This document shows positions 47,344 to 55,728 of a DNA stretch of 64,000 bases, piece after piece. Position 1 is the stretch's first letter; the number at the start of each line of letters is the position of its first letter. The notes beneath the pieces are model-generated. The model was not told the DNA's origin, did not search any database, and saw only the letters and a list, made by a program, of their open reading frames with translations. Source of the DNA: Euryhalocaulis caribicus (GTDB taxonomy: Bacteria; Pseudomonadota; Alphaproteobacteria; Caulobacterales; Maricaulaceae); assembly GCF_000412185.1 (NCBI RefSeq), contig NZ_ASJA01000009.1, positions 62,001 to 126,000 of the forward strand, written 5' to 3'. The position numbers and the translations under genes are program-made.

Positions 47344-47494
47344 TTCAAAATCACCTTCTGGACGGCGGGACAGGTAAAAACTGCGAATTACCTATAATTC
47401 AAGCCGGATTGCGCTTCACGAGCGCTTGTCAGGCCGCGCCACGCCCGCTTAACTCGGCTCAACTAAAGGAAAAGCCTGTTTGGGAGGAGCCGCC

Positions 47495-49213
47495 ATGATG
47501 CGCGGATTAATGATGGACGCCCCGCTGATGATCAGCGGAATTCTGAGACACGCCGCGCTTAATCACGGGGGCCGGGAAATTGTCACCCGCCTGCCGGAGT
47601 CGGGTGAAATCCACCGTTATGGCTATCGCGACGCCTGGAAACGCTCTCAGCAGGCAGCCCACGCCCTGACAAAGCTCGGCGTGGCGCCGGGCGAGCGCGT
47701 GGGCACGATCGCGTGGAACACGCACCGGCATTTCGAACTCTATTATGCGGTGTCCGGCATCGAGAGCGTGATCCACACGATAAATCCGCGCCTGAAGCCC
47801 GAGCAGATCGCCTGGATCATCAATCACGCCGAAGACAAGATCGTCTTCTTCGACACCACATTCGCCCCGATCGTTGACGGGATCGCGCAGCACTGCCCCG
47901 GCGTTGAAAAATGGGTGCTGATGGCGGGCGCCGAACACAAGCCCGAAATGAAGACCGAAATCCTCACCTATGAGGAACTGATCGCCGACGAGCCCGATGA
48001 GTTCGACTGGCCGGTCTTCGACGAACACGCCGCCGCCTGCCTCTGCTACACGTCCGGCACCACGGGCGATCCCAAGGGCGTTCTCTATTCCCATCGCTCC
48101 ACCGTCCTGCACGCGATGAGCTCCATCGCGCCGGACGTGATCGGCGGCGGCGCCGAAGCCTCGATCCTGGCCGTGGTTCCGATGTTCCACGTCTCCGCCT
48201 GGGGTCTGCCCTATGGCGCGCCGATGGCGGGCGCGAAACTGGTCATGCCGGGCGCGCAACTGGACGGCGCCAGCCTGTACGAGCTGATCGACGGCGAGGA
48301 CGTCACCTACATGGTGGGCGTGCCCACCGTCTGGCTCGGCGTGCTGGACTATCTGCGCAAGAACGAAAAACGCCTCGACAAGGTCGAAAAAATCTTGTCC
48401 GGCGGCTCCGCCCTGCCCGAGGCGCTGCTGCGCGCCTATGAGGAAGGCTATGGCGTCACCATGCAGCAGGGCTGGGGCATGACGGAAATGTCGCCCATCG
48501 GCACGATCGGCACGCTGAAACCCAATCATGACGGGCTGCCGCAGGACGAGAAGGTCAAGATCAAGCTGAAACAAGGTCTGGGCGTTTATGGCGTGGAGCT
48601 GCGCGTGGTTTCCGAAGACGGCAAGATTCTGCCGCGCGACGGCAAATCGTCCGGCCACCTTCAGGTGCGCGGGCCGTGGATCGCCAGCCAGTATTTCAAG
48701 CGCGACAGCGACGATCAGTTCACCGATGACGGATGGTTCGACACCGGCGACATCGCGCACCTGGACGATGATGGCTACATGACCATTACCGACCGCGCCA
48801 AGGACGTGATCAAGACCGGCGGCGAATGGATTTCCTCCATTGATCTGGAAAACGCCGCTATGGGCCATCCCGACGTGGCGCAGGCCGCCGCCATCGGCCT
48901 GCCCCATCCAAAGTGGCAGGAGCGCCCGCTACTGGTCGTTGTGCCGAAAGAGGGGTGTTCTCCCACAGAGCAGCAGATACAGGATTACATCGCGGAAAAA
49001 TGCGCCAAGTGGTGGGTGCCGGACGCGGTCGAATTCGTCGAGGAACTGCCGCTCGGCGCCACAGGCAAAGTTCTGAAGACCGATCTGCGCGAACGCTTCA
49101 AGGACTACAAGCTCGGCGAGGACAAGCCGAAGAAAGCCAGGCCGGAAACCTCGGCCGCGCCGGAAACCGATAATGGCGGTGAAAAGCGGAAAAAATTCCT
49201 GGGAATTTTCTAG
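47495..49213 (+). CDS. Acyl-CoA ligase of the DmdB / long-chain type
   Basis: The protein has 572 residues from the ATG at 47495, with GGGAGGAG just upstream. The AMP-binding signature [19 protein letters not shown] (about 188-206) is clear, then [22 protein letters not shown] and the C-terminal catalytic Lys in [13 protein letters not shown]. The N-terminus [16 protein letters not shown] resembles 3-methylmercaptopropionyl-CoA ligase DmdB and medium/long-chain ligases. The exact acyl substrate cannot be fixed. An AT-rich palindrome (AAAATTCC/GGAATTTT) lies at the 3' end. Confidence 0.92.
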
Positions 49214-49240
49214 GGGTTTGAGCGCAGACGCTGAAGGTGA

Positions 49241-49603
49241 TCAGTCCGGAAGGACGGTCACCTTCAGGCGCATCTTGGGGTGGATGTCACAGCGGACGAC
49301 ATATTCGCCCGGTTGATCGAAAACGATATCGGTTCGCGATCCGATCGGCTGTGACCCGGAATCGAAGCTCAACGCGTCAGATTCCACATAGGCATGATGC
49401 AGGAACTGATCATCATTGACGATGGTCAGCGTTCCCCCTTCTGTGAGCGTCGTTTCCTCGGGGTCGAAAGCCCGTCCCCGCTGGGACACCGTCACCGTGG
49501 CCTCGCCCTGCCCGGCCGATTCACCCGGCAACACCGTGGCGGGCTGCGCTGCTGTAAAAACGGGAAAAGCGGCCACAGCCGCGACACATGAAATCAGGCG
49601 CAT
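49241..49603 (-). CDS. Exported cupredoxin (plastocyanin-like, 'methylamine utilisation protein' type)
   Basis: The protein has 120 residues from the ATG at 49603. It has a signal peptide to about residue 19 and then one cupredoxin domain. Type I copper ligands are in place: H69 or H70 in QFLHHAY, then C105, H108 and M111 in RCDIHPKM. It probably carries electrons or senses copper/redox state in the periplasm. It is the last of four minus-strand genes. The gap from the kinase stop is eight bases, so it belongs to the globin operon. Confidence 0.88.
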   Translation of the reverse strand: MRLISCVAAVAAFPVFTAAQPATVLPGESAGQGEATVTVSQRGRAFDPEETTLTEGGTLTIVNDDQFLHHAYVESDALSFDSGSQPIGSRTDIVFDQPGEYVVRCDIHPKMRLKVTVLPD

Positions 49604-49611
49604 CTTCACTC

Positions 49612-51498
49612 TCACGCTACCGCAGCATCGGGATTTAGGGCTTTTGCCGGCGGCAACCAGATCGTCACGCATGTCCCCGCGCCCGGCTCCGACTCCACGC
49701 GCAGCTTTCCGCCTGACCTTTCGATCAGCTGGTTGGCCACCGCCAGCCCAAGGCCGCAGCCCTCATAGTGGCGCGTAACGCCTGATTCCAGCTGCCGGAA
49801 AGGCTCCAGCGCCATCGGGATCTTGTCGGCGCTCATACCGATGCCCGTGTCGCGTATGCGTATTTCCACGCCGCGGGGCAGAGCGGATATCTCGGCTGAC
49901 ACCGCCCCGCCCTCATCGGTGAACTTCACGGCGTTGGATATGATCTCTCCGGCCGCGCGCTTGACCGCGTTCGGATCGGCGTGCGCGCAGACCCCTTCTC
50001 CGCCGGAGACGGAAAGCCGGATGGACTTGGCGGCAATCTGCGTCTCGTGCAGTGCGACGGCCTCTTCAACAAGCTCGCTGACAGGCAAGGTTTCGGGCCA
50101 GAGTTCTGATTCCTGCGCGCCGGACACTTCCAGAATATTCTCGATAATCGTCAGCAGGTTCATCCCGCTTTCGTGGATCAGGGTCGCATAGCTCTTTTGC
50201 TGCTCCGCGTTGGCCGCGCCATGGCCTTTTAGAATACCGGCAAACCCGATGACGGCGTTCAGCGGGGTGCGCAATTCGTGCGTCATCGCCGTCATGAAGT
50301 CTGTTTTCGCCCGGCTGGCCATTTCGGCCCGGTCCCTGGCGTCCAGATAGTCCGACTCGCGCTGCTTGGCGTCGCTGATATCGGCCCAGGTGATCAGTGC
50401 CCCGCCTTCGCTGGTGGCGCTCCGGTCCATCCTCAACCAGCGCCCGTCCGGCAAACGCATTTCTCCAGCGTGAGCCTCTTCGGAAAACAGCGTGTCGCGC
50501 GACACGGAAACCGGCGATCCGTCCTGCCGGAAAAGTTCAGGATAGAAGGCTCCGTGAATATTTTCCTCGCGAAGGTCGGGGAAAAAGTCCTTCACCTTCA
50601 CATTGGCATGAATAATCCGCTGGTCCGCATCGACCAGAACGATCGCCTCATGCGCGTTCTGAAGCGCGTCGATCAGGCGGATCTGCGCGGTTGTCCGCAG
50701 GGCTTTTTCCCGGGCCATCATCTCCCGGATATTGTCCTGCATGACCGACATGGAGCGCAGCAGAGCCCCGGTCTCATCCTGTCCCCCGGCCGGGATTTCC
50801 GCCTCGAAATCACCATCGGCGATCCGGTTCGCCGCGCCGGAGGCCGCATCCAGGGGCCGCACGATGGAGCGAGTCAGCAATGCAATAATCAGGATCGACA
50901 CGGCAATCGCGGCCAGCGCCGCCGCTGTGTTCAGCCGCTGGCTTCTATCCACCGCCGCCACCGCGCTCTCCCGCGACAGATAGGCGGCATTGGCCTGTAG
51001 TTCGACGATGATATCGAGCGTTTCGACAATCTGGTCCGCCTGCGCCTGAAGCGTCCGCTCCGGCAAGGCCTCGCCGCCGGACGCCATGACCGCCGCACCC
51101 CATTCCTGCGCCTGCAGGCGCACCTCATGCGTCATCTCCCGCGAGCGGGCAGTCAGCGCGCGTTCCTCGACAATCTCCAGATCGCTCAGGAAATCGTCCA
51201 TGCGCTCTTCAAATTCGGAAAAGTCGGCGCCGTCGGCGCCCTCATACACGCCCTGCCGCAACAGCGCGGCGTCCGCGCGGGAGAAGGACAGGCTCGCGGC
51301 CCGGGCAAAATTGATCGCCATCATGGGACGGTCATAGGTTTCCTCGACCACCGCCCCGGCCCGTGTAATCGACATCACGGCGTAAGCGCCCACCGCGGCC
51401 ACCAGCAGGCACATCGCCAGACAGCCCAGAACCAGCCGGCTGCGAATCGTCGTCAGCAGGCGCGTCTGTTTCAGGGGTTGCGGCATATCCTGTGACAC
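49612..51498 (-). CDS. Membrane sensor histidine kinase with HAMP and PAS-like domains
   Basis: The 628-residue protein has TM1 at about 21-43, a helical periplasmic sensor (about 45-190) of four-helix-bundle type, TM2 at about 192-209 and a HAMP domain at about 210-262. A PAS-like domain follows at about 275-375, then HisKA with H407 in MTHELRTPLN, and an HATPase domain with N522, DTGIGM (551-556) and GCGLGLAVANQL. No receiver domain is present and no response regulator is nearby, so its target is unknown. It lies in one tight operon with the exported globin and cupredoxin, so it may report their redox or ligand state. Confidence 0.93.
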   Translation of the reverse strand: MSQDMPQPLKQTRLLTTIRSRLVLGCLAMCLLVAAVGAYAVMSITRAGAVVEETYDRPMMAINFARAASLSFSRADAALLRQGVYEGADGADFSEFEERMDDFLSDLEIVEERALTARSREMTHEVRLQAQEWGAAVMASGGEALPERTLQAQADQIVETLDIIVELQANAAYLSRESAVAAVDRSQRLNTAAALAAIAVSILIIALLTRSIVRPLDAASGAANRIADGDFEAEIPAGGQDETGALLRSMSVMQDNIREMMAREKALRTTAQIRLIDALQNAHEAIVLVDADQRIIHANVKVKDFFPDLREENIHGAFYPELFRQDGSPVSVSRDTLFSEEAHAGEMRLPDGRWLRMDRSATSEGGALITWADISDAKQRESDYLDARDRAEMASRAKTDFMTAMTHELRTPLNAVIGFAGILKGHGAANAEQQKSYATLIHESGMNLLTIIENILEVSGAQESELWPETLPVSELVEEAVALHETQIAAKSIRLSVSGGEGVCAHADPNAVKRAAGEIISNAVKFTDEGGAVSAEISALPRGVEIRIRDTGIGMSADKIPMALEPFRQLESGVTRHYEGCGLGLAVANQLIERSGGKLRVESEPGAGTCVTIWLPPAKALNPDAAVA

Positions 51499-51517
51499 GG
51501 CGGTCCTGAAAGTCCTT

Positions 51518-51940
51518 CTACTCGGTCACCACGTCCCGGTGCATCGGCGCCAGAATCGCCAGCAGGCGGTTCTGGGTGCGGAACCCCACGCCCTCTTCGT
51601 CCATCGCGTCCTGAAGGTTCTCGACCAGCGCGTTGAAATCCGCCGTATCCAGCGCCAGCCCCTTGTGCGAGGCCTCCATCGTCTGCCCGGAATATTCGCA
51701 AGGCCCGCCCGTCAGATCGCAAATCTGTTCGGTCAGCAGGCGCTTGACCCGGTCGACATTGGAATTTTCGAAGGTATGGCCGATGCGCGGATCAGCGACC
51801 GAACGGTCAATCGCGCCATGCGCAATGCGCTCCACCGCGTCCGCCCCGCCAAGGTCTTCATACAGAGTCGCATCCGCCGCCTGCGCCGCGCCGGCGGCCA
51901 GCAGCAACGCGGCGAGCGCCGTCATCACCGGTCTCATCAT
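51518..51940 (-). CDS. Group I truncated haemoglobin with signal peptide
   Basis: The 140-residue protein has a signal peptide ending AAQAA (about residue 22), unusual for a globin. The truncated globin core follows: TLYEDLGGADAVERIAHGAI, split here, then LTEQICDLTGGPCEYSG and the proximal-His segment MEASHKGLAL (H92). Two Cys (C74, C81) could form a periplasmic disulfide. Known trHbI proteins bind O2 or NO. Here the signal peptide predicts periplasmic location. It starts one base after the DUF3034 stop and ends 19 bases before the kinase start. Confidence 0.92.
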   Translation of the reverse strand: MMRPVMTALAALLLAAGAAQAADATLYEDLGGADAVERIAHGAIDRSVADPRIGHTFENSNVDRVKRLLTEQICDLTGGPCEYSGQTMEASHKGLALDTADFNALVENLQDAMDEEGVGFRTQNRLLAILAPMHRDVVTE

Positions 51941-51941
51941 C

Positions 51942-52802
51942 CTAAAACCCCACTTGCAGAGAAAAATACACGCCGGCCTGACCGCCCTGATTGGCCACCT
52001 CGCCCAGATCGACGCCGGCCAGCGTCAGAGACACGCCCTTGTTCGGGAAGAAGACCAGATAGGCCGCCGCGGCGTCCTCTTCGTCCGCGAAAGCCAGGTT
52101 GTCCGGCTTGGTCCGATAGTCCGCGCCCACGGCCCAGCGCCGGGACAGCAGCATCACGGCCGATCCGTCGAACTGCGCGGAATAATCCTCGTCAAAGCCC
52201 AGCAGGCCGAACTGGTTGGCCTGGGTGGCGCGCACGGTCCCGCTCAGAAGCAGGCTGTGCCGCAGATAGAGCTTCGTGGCGGACAGATAGTAATCCACCC
52301 CGGAATCGTCGTCCGCGCCAACGGCCGCCAGAACGGCTTCCTGTTCGGCGTCCTTGTACTGGATGCCGGCGGCCACCTGCGGATACCAGCGGTCCTGGTC
52401 ATAGACCGCGTCCCCGAACAGCCGCACCTTGGCGCCGAAAACGTCCTGACCGAATTCAAACCCCTCGCCCAGTCCCAGCACGACGCCGGTCTCGCCCGTA
52501 TCGAAATACTGGCGCGCATAGCTGAGCTCCACGCGGTCGAACAGGCCCGCGGCAAAGCCCACAGTCTCGAACGTGAAATCCGGCAGGTCCAGATAGCTGT
52601 AATGCGCATTGGCCCCGACGCCGTTGCGCGAGCCATAGCCCGTGATAACCGACCATGTGGAAAGCCCGGCCCCGCCCGCGCCCTCGATCTGGCTCACGCC
52701 GCCCGTGGCCAGAAGCTTGCCGCTGTCAAAGACCGTATCGGCCGCGGCGGGCGATGCGGCCGCGCAAACAGCCGTCATCACGCTGACAAGGTAATTTTTC
52801 AT
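51942..52802 (-). CDS. DUF3034 family outer-membrane beta-barrel-like protein
   Basis: The 286-residue protein has a signal peptide ending PAAA (about residue 20). The mature part consists of amphipathic strands with alternating aromatic residues (FTFETVGFAAGLFDRVELSYARQYF, split here) and ends in QVGF, a C-terminal aromatic typical of outer-membrane barrels. GGVSQIEGAGGAGLSTWSVI near the N-terminus is characteristic of DUF3034. The function is unknown. It is the first gene of the four-gene operon with globin, kinase and cupredoxin. Confidence 0.87.
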   Translation of the reverse strand: MKNYLVSVMTAVCAAASPAAADTVFDSGKLLATGGVSQIEGAGGAGLSTWSVITGYGSRNGVGANAHYSYLDLPDFTFETVGFAAGLFDRVELSYARQYFDTGETGVVLGLGEGFEFGQDVFGAKVRLFGDAVYDQDRWYPQVAAGIQYKDAEQEAVLAAVGADDDSGVDYYLSATKLYLRHSLLLSGTVRATQANQFGLLGFDEDYSAQFDGSAVMLLSRRWAVGADYRTKPDNLAFADEEDAAAAYLVFFPNKGVSLTLAGVDLGEVANQGGQAGVYFSLQVGF

Positions 52803-52806
52803 GTTC

Positions 52807-52828
52807 CTGGCCCTTATTTCCGGGCCAG
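52807..52828 (-). promoter_or_regulatory. Inverted repeat in the DUF3034-operon leader
   Basis: CTGGCCC (52807-52813) and GGGCCAG (52822-52828) are perfect inverted repeats around eight bases. They end four bases before the DUF3034 start codon and overlap the AGG of its ribosome site on the minus strand. The element could be an operator or an RNA hairpin controlling translation of the operon's first gene. Confidence 0.4.
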
Positions 52829-52862
52829 AACACCAGATTTGGCTTAAAATCTCATTACTTGT

Positions 52863-54566
52863 CTATTCGGACCCGGCATAGAGCTTCTTCACGGTCAGCT
52901 TGTCGATTTTCGCCGTCCCGCCGCGCGGCAGGGGTTCGTCGCGGAACCAGAACCGTTCCGGAATCTTGAAGCCGGCCAACCGCTCTGCGGCAAAGGCCCT
53001 CAAGGCGTCCTCATCCGCCGCTTCGCCTTCATGGAGATAGACAACCGCGCCCACGGCCTCGCCCAGCCGCTCGTCCGGCAACCCGATTACCGCGATCTCC
53101 GCCACGCCGGGATGTTCGTAGAACGCCTCCTCCACCTCCAGCGCGGCAATGTTCTCGCCGCCGCGCAGGATCATGTCCTTCACGCGTCCCTGCACGTACA
53201 GGAAGCCGTCCTCGTCAAGCCGGCCCAGATCGCCGCTTCTCAGATAGCCTTCCTCATCGAACACCGCCTTCGTGTCCTCCGGGCGGTTCCAGTACTCGAT
53301 CATATTGGCGGGCGAGCGGATGCAGATCTCCCCGATCTCGCCCACCGGAAGCGCCTTGCCGTCTTCCCCCGCGATCTTCACCTCCGTAACCGGCGGCACA
53401 ACCTTGCCGGCCGCGTCGGGACGCGCCTCGTAATCGGCCCGGTTGATGATCGCGCCGATCGCGTTGGTCTCGGTCAGGCCATATCCCGACGCCGCGGCGG
53501 CGTTTGGCGTCAGCTTGCGCTGCCGGGCCACATGCTCGGGCGGCCGTTTCGCGCCGCCGGAACTGATATCGATCAGGCTGGCCATGTTCCGGTCGGTTTC
53601 CGAACAGGCCTGCGCCAGCTCCGCGGTCATCGTCGGCACGCCGACAAAATGCGTGATCTCCTCCGCCTCGATCAGACGCAGGGTTTCCTCCACGTCCCAT
53701 TTGCGGATCATCACAATCTTCCGCCCGACAAACAGGGACATCAGGTACAGGCTGTGCGTCGCCGTGACATGGAACAGCGGCAGCGCCAGCAGCACCCCCA
53801 TCTGCTTGCCCTCGGGCACGGCCGGATATCGCGGGTCGGGGACGGCCAGCCCGCCCGCCAGGATCAGCAGCCAGCTTTTAAGCGTCGTCATGACACCGCG
53901 ATGGGAAGACAGAACTCCCTTCGGATATCCCGTGGAGCCGGACGTATACATCAGCGTCGCCGGATCATCCCGGCCCACCCCGGTCTGCGGCGGCGCGGTT
54001 TCCGCCTCGCCCTCGATCAAAGCGTCCAGCGTTGCCTCGCCGGCCTCGTGATCGCCCCGGACAGAAATGATTTTCACGCCCAGATCGCCTGCAAACGGCG
54101 TGATCCGGTCCAGCCGCCGCTTGTCCCCGATCACCAGCTTCGCGCCGGAATCCTCGAACGCGTATTGCAGCTCGCGCGTCGTCCACCAGGCATTCAGCGG
54201 CGTGGCGACGGCGCCCGCCAGAATGATCGCCTGGTAGGCCAGAATGAATTCGGGATAGTTGCGCATGGCGATAGCCACGCGATCGCCCGGCTTCACGCCC
54301 ATCTTCGCGACCAGCGCATTGGCCAGACGGCAGGACAGCGCATAGGTTTCGGCAAAGGATAGCCGCTGGTCCTCATAGACCAGAAACGGCGCGTCGCCAT
54401 GCATGGCGCCGAACGCAAACACCTCGCCCAGATTGGCCGACAGTTCCGCAAAGGCGCGGTGTTTCACGCCGCGTATCTCTTCCTGAGTCACCGCCCAGGC
54501 GGGATCGTTCTCCACCATGTAGCGGATCGCCTGCTCGACGGTTTCGAATTGCGGCGCGTTGGCCAT
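52863..54566 (-). CDS. Acyl-CoA synthetase (class I adenylate-forming)
   Basis: The protein has 567 residues from the ATG at 54566, with GGGAGGAG upstream; the frame extends ten codons further without a ribosome site. The signature is LMYTSGSTGYPKGVLSSHRG, followed by SGYGLTETNAIG, YLRSGDLGRLDEDGF and the catalytic Lys in LPRGGTAKIDKLTVK. Such enzymes activate fatty or aromatic acids as acyl-AMP, then acyl-CoA. It lies 60 bases upstream of the DUF3034 operon on the same strand, so read-through is possible. A second ligase sits on the other side at 47495. Confidence 0.92.
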   Translation of the reverse strand: MANAPQFETVEQAIRYMVENDPAWAVTQEEIRGVKHRAFAELSANLGEVFAFGAMHGDAPFLVYEDQRLSFAETYALSCRLANALVAKMGVKPGDRVAIAMRNYPEFILAYQAIILAGAVATPLNAWWTTRELQYAFEDSGAKLVIGDKRRLDRITPFAGDLGVKIISVRGDHEAGEATLDALIEGEAETAPPQTGVGRDDPATLMYTSGSTGYPKGVLSSHRGVMTTLKSWLLILAGGLAVPDPRYPAVPEGKQMGVLLALPLFHVTATHSLYLMSLFVGRKIVMIRKWDVEETLRLIEAEEITHFVGVPTMTAELAQACSETDRNMASLIDISSGGAKRPPEHVARQRKLTPNAAAASGYGLTETNAIGAIINRADYEARPDAAGKVVPPVTEVKIAGEDGKALPVGEIGEICIRSPANMIEYWNRPEDTKAVFDEEGYLRSGDLGRLDEDGFLYVQGRVKDMILRGGENIAALEVEEAFYEHPGVAEIAVIGLPDERLGEAVGAVVYLHEGEAADEDALRAFAAERLAGFKIPERFWFRDEPLPRGGTAKIDKLTVKKLYAGSE

Positions 54567-54732
54567 TTCAGCTCCTCCCAAAGCCTGTTTTTGCAATGAC
54601 TATAGAGGCTGCGCGCCATGAATCGAGAGCCTGAATTGCGTCATATTGCGCCCGGGCCGCGCATTAAACTTGTGTCATCTGGCCCCCTCCTGCTTGCCGC
54701 CTTCACACAACCGGCGGTAAATTTCAGGTCAT

Positions 54733-55728
54733 ATGAAACACCAATGGTCGATTACACGGGTCTGTCGGGGCGGAACGCTCTGTCTGGCCCTGTTTCTGGC
54801 CGGCGCGGGACTTTCGCTGGCCCAGCGAACCGGCGAACTCCCTCTCACCCCCACGACGGACGGTCTCTATCTGGCCCATGCCCGCGTCGCCGGGCAGGAG
54901 GGCGCTTTCGTGCTGGACACCGGCGCGGAAGTAACGGCCCTGGAGCCGGCCTTCGCCGCGCGCGCCCGGCTTGAGACCTCAACCAGTTCCCGCCGCATCA
55001 TCGGCCTCACTCAGGTAGAAGACGCCGGCGTCGCCTCGGTTGATATCGATGCCGGGCCGATACGCCGGACAGCCAGCGACGCCGCCATTCTCAGGGAGGC
55101 CCTGCCTTACCCGGCCGAAGCCGACGGCTTGCTGGGCCTCAGCGCCCTGCTGCCGGACGACGCGGCCATCGTGGAGATCGATTTCCGCGACCACGCCTTT
55201 CGTTTCCATACGGCGGAAACTGCGCCCGAGCCCAATTTTGAATCGGCCTGGCTGGACCTTCAGCCCTCGCCCAACAACCTCTCTGTCTGGCTTGCGCCGG
55301 TGGAGCTGGACCGCGTTTCCGGCGCGGCCCTGATCGATACCGGCGTCCCTTTCCTCGTGATGAACGAGGCCTATGAGAGAGTCCTGAAGGCCAAGGGGCG
55401 GCTTGAACCGATCGAGATTACCGGCTTCGACGAAAATGCCGACCGGCCGGAGGTCGTGCGGATCGAACGCCTGAAACTCGGCTCGGTCGTATGGAAAAAC
55501 GTCCCCGTCTATGTGCTGGAATCGCCCGCCTTCGCCGCGCTGGGGCGAAAGGACGAACCGACGCTGATCCTTGGCGCTTCGGCGTTCAAGGACATGAAAA
55601 TGGTCATAGACATCAAGGAGGGCCGCTTTGTCGCGGCGCCGCCGGAATATTTCGATGAGGATCGCCGCGCCTGCACCGGCAGCCGGATTTCCTGCGCCGG
55701 CAATGTCACGCGCATGACGCGCAGCTAG
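54733..55728 (+). CDS. Exported retropepsin-like aspartyl protease, two domains
   Basis: The 331-residue protein has a signal peptide ending LSLAQ (about residue 30). It has two retropepsin-type halves: FVLDTGAEVTALE in the first and ALIDTGVPFLVMN in the second, each with DTG. A hydrophobic flap-side segment (ADGLLGLSALL, LILGASAFKDMKMVID) follows each half. The duplicated single-chain arrangement could act without dimerisation. The target is unknown, probably periplasmic. It is convergent with tdh, six bases apart. Confidence 0.85.
   Translation: MKHQWSITRVCRGGTLCLALFLAGAGLSLAQRTGELPLTPTTDGLYLAHARVAGQEGAFVLDTGAEVTALEPAFAARARLETSTSSRRIIGLTQVEDAGVASVDIDAGPIRRTASDAAILREALPYPAEADGLLGLSALLPDDAAIVEIDFRDHAFRFHTAETAPEPNFESAWLDLQPSPNNLSVWLAPVELDRVSGAALIDTGVPFLVMNEAYERVLKAKGRLEPIEITGFDENADRPEVVRIERLKLGSVVWKNVPVYVLESPAFAALGRKDEPTLILGASAFKDMKMVIDIKEGRFVAAPPEYFDEDRRACTGSRISCAGNVTRMTRS

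Follow-up and report, generated by a model that had tools for sequence, protein, structure and literature searches.

Four head-to-tail genes in a 64,000-nucleotide stretch of the Euryhalocaulis caribicus genome (contig NZ_ASJA01000009.1, positions 62,001 to 126,000; hereafter the window) encode a DUF3034 (PF11231) protein, a predicted exported globin, a two-transmembrane (two-TM) histidine kinase and a predicted exported cupredoxin, and represent one version of a gene module found across the Pseudomonadota. The evidence for linkage and for modularity is firm: the genes of DUF3034 and the globin lie side by side, the cupredoxin gene accompanies that of a membrane sensor, and three types of sensor (a GGDEF-EAL protein, a histidine kinase and a sensor without an output domain) fill the same role. 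We propose, at a probability of roughly 55%, that the module serves signalling at the cell envelope as a modular system with haem and copper components, in which the output can be exchanged.

DUF3034 is present in 39 of the 398 Pseudomonadota genomes searched. A profile built from DUF3034-linked globins and searched against 398 genomes that were drawn in the same way, revealed a matching two-Cys globin in 39 of the 39 genomes with DUF3034 as compared to 2 of the 359 others; all 41 of these genomes score at least 138 bits, and the next match scores 94 bits. The two exceptions (G210 and G377; G, C and L numbers are our handles for genomes, contigs and loci) have no DUF3034 near their globin. We further compared 122 distinct loci, made up of the window together with 43 fetched regions and a set of 80 named loci, minus two repeats (L081 and L091, which duplicate L040 and L050); the named set, taken as the best 80 among 531 relatives of a seven-sequence query, leans to alphaproteobacteria and Lysobacterales, and some neighbour sets end at contig ends. 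In 121 of these loci (all but L127), the next gene after DUF3034 on its strand is that of the globin, at a median distance of 4 nucleotides (nt) and a maximum of 63 when the nearest in-frame start is taken. The linkage of DUF3034 and the globin is far beyond chance. Two variants were seen beside it: globins of the DUF3034-linked type stand alone, without DUF3034, at L193:6558-7154 and L194:6749-7195 (G210 and G377), and a genome with an intact pair also carries a second, decaying one (L195:6180-7410; G136, contig C3).

Clustering of unrelated genes by chance or within single lineages would fit the rarity of the window's exact order, DUF3034-globin-kinase-cupredoxin, which occurs in only four distinct loci (the window, L039, L040 and L112). 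By contrast, linkage of these families recurs in alpha-, beta- and gammaproteobacteria, with several gene orders and orientations, and we give this account a negligible probability; for DUF3034, globin and cupredoxin, it is refuted by the genome-wide pairing and the counts over the 122 loci. A first-pass annotation of the window had made its reading depend on conserved linkage of these families in other genomes, and co-conservation of DUF3034, globin and cupredoxin, with a two-TM sensor accompanying the cupredoxin, is what we found.

A cupredoxin gene lies within 5.5 kb in 89 of the 122 loci, and its presence follows that of a sensor. Both cupredoxin and two-TM sensor genes stand beside the DUF3034-globin pair in 83 loci; a cupredoxin without a recognised sensor was found in six (L052, L068, L073, L083, L092 and L128), a sensor without a cupredoxin in one (L065) and neither in 32. 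Put differently, 83 of the 84 loci that have a recognised sensor carry the cupredoxin, as compared to 6 of the 38 others (Fisher p 3e-22, ignoring relatedness). In L052 and L128, counted as cupredoxin without sensor, and in L142, counted among those with neither, a further GGDEF-EAL-type open reading frame (ORF) lies nearby whose sensor part is unmatched by the profile.

These counts bear on a different, somewhat doubtful explanation, in which globin and cupredoxin are effectors that, together with the barrel, carry electrons or detoxify nitric oxide (NO), peroxide or excess O2 at the cell envelope, while the part of the EAL protein or kinase is confined to regulating them, or biofilm, in response to another ligand. 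Type-1 copper proteins are typically electron carriers, 31 loci hold the pair without a recognised sensor, and one report on a cable bacterium proposes that a periplasmic truncated haemoglobin acts as an O2 reductase (PMC12093952). Nevertheless, the cupredoxin follows the sensor and not the globin, it is once fused to a kinase, and the polar B10/E11 pair of the haemoglobin HbN is missing from the globins (see below), all of which argue against an effector role.

The fusion was found in Rhodospirillales bacterium TMPK1, where a 709-residue ORF (L094:3615-5744, minus strand) consists of a kinase (residues 1-600), a hydrophobic stretch and a cupredoxin (residues 624-708), with DUF3034 and globin genes adjoining. 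It is the sole ORF that joins two of the DUF3034, globin, cupredoxin, GGDEF-EAL and kinase queries, double matches to GGDEF-EAL and kinase being left out. This arrangement suggests that cupredoxin and kinase may work in contact, although the fusion could also stem from a sequencing error that removed a stop.

The commonest sensor is the GGDEF-EAL protein (55 of 122 loci, 54 of them with a cupredoxin); the kinase occurs in 15, including the window, and a sensor without an output domain in 14 (13 Lysobacterales and one unclassified gammaproteobacterium). These frequencies led us to reject the kinase as the usual partner. The first-pass annotation had suggested an envelope haem-copper system reporting through the kinase; the linked two-TM sensor fits that suggestion, and it is the choice of the kinase as the typical reporter that had to be given up. 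In addition to the four loci with the window's order, the kinase loci comprise ten with the order DUF3034-globin-cupredoxin-kinase and the L094 fusion. The window's own family holds both main layouts, with a kinase in L039 and L040 and a GGDEF-EAL protein in L041 and L043. Robiginitomaculum antarcticum (L040) is of the kinase type, and the GGDEF-EAL type is carried, for example, by a Caulobacter or Phenylobacterium species (L156). On a quick DUF3034 tree with many weak branches, the four labels need 22 changes as compared to 57 when shuffled, and two changes account for the difference between kinase and GGDEF-EAL.

The window kinase has a predicted periplasmic sensor followed by HAMP, PAS_7, HisKA (His407) and HATPase domains, the HisKA and HATPase pair that marks a histidine kinase, and carries no receiver domain. 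Each residue of its H407-E-L-R-T-P motif is kept in at least 85% of 14 aligned kinases, as are D56, P58, L59, M60, R66, D106, L107, R113 and W133 of the sensor; the alignment excludes L094 as well as L128 and L160, which are not among the kinase loci. The sensor is modelled as a four-helix bundle (predicted local distance difference test, pLDDT, 85.9; predicted template modelling score, pTM, 0.63), a common fold whose nearest solved example is NarQ (Foldseek E 2e-4). As had been noted at first pass, no response regulator is encoded nearby: none of the 48 PF00072 matches of the genome lies on the kinase's 136-kb contig.

The GGDEF-EAL partners combine a dCache-like sensor with GGDEF and EAL domains, and a HAMP domain was found in one of two scanned. 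The EAL catalytic residues, a set named by comparison with RocR, are present in 56 of 56 aligned sensors (E543, N601, E633, D663, D664, K684, E720 and Q740 in L049 numbering; E723 in 55), whereas the GGDEF motif is canonical in 13 of the 56. This alignment holds 56 of the 58 sensors found, the other two ORFs being shorter than 650 aa, and includes the less certain partners L052, L128 and L142. Judged by these residues, the partners are probably active phosphodiesterases of cyclic diguanylate (c-di-GMP); the window's cluster contains no such protein. The output-less sensors have a weakly Cache- or CHASE4-like periplasmic part and end within about 100 residues past the second TM segment, with a HAMP-like piece at most (14 tails viewed); a Pfam scan of 11 of the 14 returned no output domain. 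Nine of the 14 match a profile of the GGDEF-EAL periplasmic part at 19 to 44 bits, a weak link between the two types. Output-less sensors of this kind stand beside the cupredoxin mostly in Lysobacterales (e.g. L130:4699-5760 and L153:4932-5858).

The globins share a number of features: firstly, the proximal site is conserved, with His F8 in 121 of 121 and Phe CD1 in 118 of 121 (His92 and Phe57 in the window), and together with the significant profile match these residues place the window globin among group-I truncated haemoglobins; secondly, the distal pocket is apolar, B10 being Val, Met, Leu or Ile in 113 globins (Thr in 5, Tyr in 2, Asn in 1), E11 being Leu in 109 (Phe in 11, Ile in 1, Gln in 0) and E7 being apolar in 120 (Ile44, Leu69 and Val65, respectively, in the window); thirdly, two cysteines (Cys74 and Cys81 in the window) occur together in 111 globins and are jointly missing from the other 10, an all-or-none pattern as would be expected of a disulphide. 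Scored by a simple pattern, the N-termini of the 121 globins carry a lipobox in 31 cases, a hydrophobic stretch in 89 and neither in one. The two cysteines of the window globin and the intact His/Cys/His/Met copper site of the window cupredoxin had been reported at first pass, as had a signal peptide on the globin; both cysteines, the copper site and a hydrophobic globin N-terminus are seen in the sequences.

The best match of the globin profile among solved structures is to HbN variants (94 bits). HbN (PDB 1idr family) resembles the module's globin in fold profile, F8 His, CD1 Phe and a Y-x-G-x-x-M-x-x-x-H motif, and differs from it in that the latter is predicted to be exported, carries the Cys pair, rarely has Tyr B10 and was never found with Gln E11. 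In HbN, Tyr B10 and Gln E11 hold O2; the matched HbN chains show them as Tyr33 and Gln58. The window globin, with Ile44 and Leu69, lacks the Tyr B10 and Gln E11 of an HbN-type NO dioxygenase, as do nearly all its relatives. Because these distal residues are missing, weak O2 binding is expected, and the apolar pocket should bind NO or carbon monoxide (CO) better. Another type of exported globin, encoded without a nearby DUF3034, has the same Cys pair and apolar pocket and an Arg aligned at CD1 (L196:6048-6632, L197:6483-6956 and L199:6143-6724), and the window's genome has a second, distant globin (G000:C6:90707-90964).

The copper ligands of the window cupredoxin are His69, Cys105, His108 and Met111, the last three in a C-X2-H-X2-M loop. 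These ligands are invariant in 89 of 89 aligned cupredoxins, the window's included, as is characteristic of type-1 copper proteins. The nearest solved sequences lie within copper nitrite reductases (E 5e-7 and 1e-4), followed by plastocyanin and amicyanin (E at least 0.008). The resemblance of the cupredoxin to nitrite reductases and of the kinase sensor to NarQ are weak leads towards nitrogen oxides and no evidence of a ligand.

DUF3034 matched no solved structure by sequence at E 1. Its AlphaFold2 model is a closed barrel of 12 strands (pLDDT 78.5, pTM 0.78; first 28 residues low), and its nearest solved folds are the FapF barrel (Z 19.6, root-mean-square deviation 3.0, 220 residues aligned) and KdgM (Z 18.3). 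The even strand number, barrel closure and C-terminal Phe are those of an outer-membrane beta-barrel, so that the modelled fold points to the outer membrane, not to function; a conserved N-terminal segment spans residues 28-50 (alignment columns). The porin-like shape near FapF, KdgM and NanC, with the copper transport barrel PcoB also listed (Z 13), would suit a role in haem or copper uptake or trafficking, with DUF3034 as the pore, globin and cupredoxin as periplasmic carriers and the sensor reporting metal status. We regard this as improbable: no transporter recurs, the only ORF clusters found in at least 4 of the 44 first-set loci being DUF3034 (with antisense ORFs), globin, cupredoxin, GGDEF-EAL and kinase, and a complete set of type-1 ligands is a mark of electron-transfer proteins more often than of transporters.

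In the signalling system that we favour, DUF3034 would form a barrel in the outer membrane and there retain or let in something. The exported globin, which shows the lipobox pattern in about a quarter of relatives, would be a periplasmic haem protein, and its apolar distal pocket would prefer NO, CO or a change in the redox state of the iron to O2. The cupredoxin, as a small type-1 copper protein, would touch the membrane sensor, its redox or metal state following that of the globin and setting sensor activity. At most sensor-bearing loci the sensor is the GGDEF-EAL protein and the output would be c-di-GMP breakdown; in the window and 14 other loci, the histidine kinase would act on a response regulator encoded elsewhere. 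More specifically, and only tentatively, a free periplasmic globin and a type-1 copper protein beneath an outer-membrane barrel may act together as a redox switch running from haem to copper; it would respond to NO, CO or the redox state of the envelope, and its outputs, which can be exchanged, would be c-di-GMP breakdown, a histidine kinase or a sensor lacking an output of its own.

Several observations weigh against this picture. DUF3034 and the globin stand without other module members in 31 of the 122 loci (some cut by contig ends), so that the pair must have some role even where no sensor is linked to it. The module shares its Cys pair and apolar pocket with the exported globins of L196, L197 and L199, which lack DUF3034, and these traits therefore do not set it apart. 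No route for signalling is apparent in the 14 output-less sensors, the cupredoxin-kinase fusion is known from one genome only, and our literature search found no experiment on any module member. Nor is there a tie to NO in gene content: H-NOX occurs in 9 of the 39 DUF3034 genomes as compared to 94 of the 359 others, and copper nitrite reductase scores above the cut-off in 3 of 39 as compared to 52 of 359 (overlaps counted by hand), while the window's own genome has an H-NOX (G000:C13:53541-54020). A module that substitutes for H-NOX or is linked to copper nitrite reductase was rejected, there being no association in the 398 genomes. NO or O2, named at first pass as possible signals, thus fared poorly, as the distal pocket argues against stable O2 binding and the co-occurrence with H-NOX and NirK gives NO no support; the signal may be NO, CO or redox.

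In organisation, the module most resembles YfiBNR of Pseudomonas aeruginosa, in which an outer-membrane part, a periplasmic regulator and an inner-membrane sensor are likewise encoded together. YfiB has a PAL domain, whereas the module uses an unrelated barrel, globin and cupredoxin; we know of no haem or copper site in YfiR, and the four window proteins have no YfiR or OmpA/PAL Pfam match at E 0.001. Excerpts of one study describe distant relatives of YfiBNR whose output domain is replaced by GGDEF-EAL, HPT or sensor histidine kinases (PMC3375315). The module shares this organisation but is built of unrelated proteins.

Globin-coupled sensors and H-NOX/NosP also tie a haem protein to c-di-GMP turnover or histidine kinases. 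Their haem domains are cytoplasmic, fused to or partnered with cytoplasmic enzymes, whereas the module's globin is a separate and predicted exported protein. The sCache_heme sensor, as described in parts of its report, places an extracytoplasmic haem ahead of signalling modules and is reported to bind NO rather than O2; it uses c-type haem, a CXXCH motif and a Cache fold, where the module has a separate polypeptide with a globin fold and a C-X6-C pair (PMC12889525). A review of c-di-GMP inputs treats globin domains in cyclases and phosphodiesterases, and a word search of its text found neither copper nor cupredoxin (PMC8846402). In the open-licence literature, partial texts mentioning DUF3034 appear to contain a misprint and another protein, and PF11231, pfam11231, IPR021393, a periplasmic globin linked to c-di-GMP and haem-copper sensor chemistry were not found. 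Exported globins came up there only in the cable-bacterium report, and a Leptospira transcriptome study alone named two among cupredoxin, EAL domain and methylamine utilization protein. The module would seem to use haem and copper to sense something outside the cell, in a way for which this literature gave no description. If so, it would give DUF3034 a function, account for a conserved group of exported haemoglobins and supply c-di-GMP and kinase signalling in many proteobacteria with an input based on haem and copper. The exchange of outputs behind constant periplasmic parts makes this directly testable: one barrel-globin-cupredoxin input should drive a phosphodiesterase or a kinase, depending on the species.

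The window's cluster lies on contig C9 (136 kb) of a 3.3-Mb genome, in the order DUF3034, globin, kinase, cupredoxin with gaps of 1, 19 and 8 nt, and the minus-strand ORF coordinates bear out the head-to-tail arrangement reported at first pass.

Features of the four-gene cluster, in window coordinates
Feature	Position	Strand	Description
DUF3034 (PF11231)	51942..52802	minus	286 aa; Pfam 302 bits; C-terminal Phe
Group-I-type truncated globin, predicted exported	51518..51940	minus	140 aa; PF01152 Bac_globin 46 bits
Two-TM histidine kinase	49612..51498	minus	GTG start, 628 aa; HAMP, PAS_7, HisKA, HATPase_c (Pfam)
Type-1 cupredoxin, predicted exported	49241..49603	minus	120 aa; PF13473 Cupredoxin_1 31.5 bits

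Genes are mechanical ORF calls with uncertain N-termini, and signal peptides were assessed by eye and by a simple pattern. The cupredoxin length assumes the start closest to the end of the kinase gene; in its longest form the ORF begins at 49672 and overlaps the kinase. NCBIfam returned no family for DUF3034, globin or cupredoxin at E 0.001. A promoter scan of 49000-55000 found a single sigma-70-like site as compared to 0.9 expected, and because this lies on the opposite strand, the operon is proposed from gene spacing. Directly before the DUF3034 start, a strong hairpin (CTGGCCC...GGGCCAG; 52803-52840, minus strand; fold z-score -2.9) touches the likely ribosome-binding site; it was not seen in the upstream stretches of six relatives compared by eye. 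AMP-binding acyl-CoA synthetase-like genes (Pfam) at 52863-54596 and 47480-49213, one per strand, flank the cluster.

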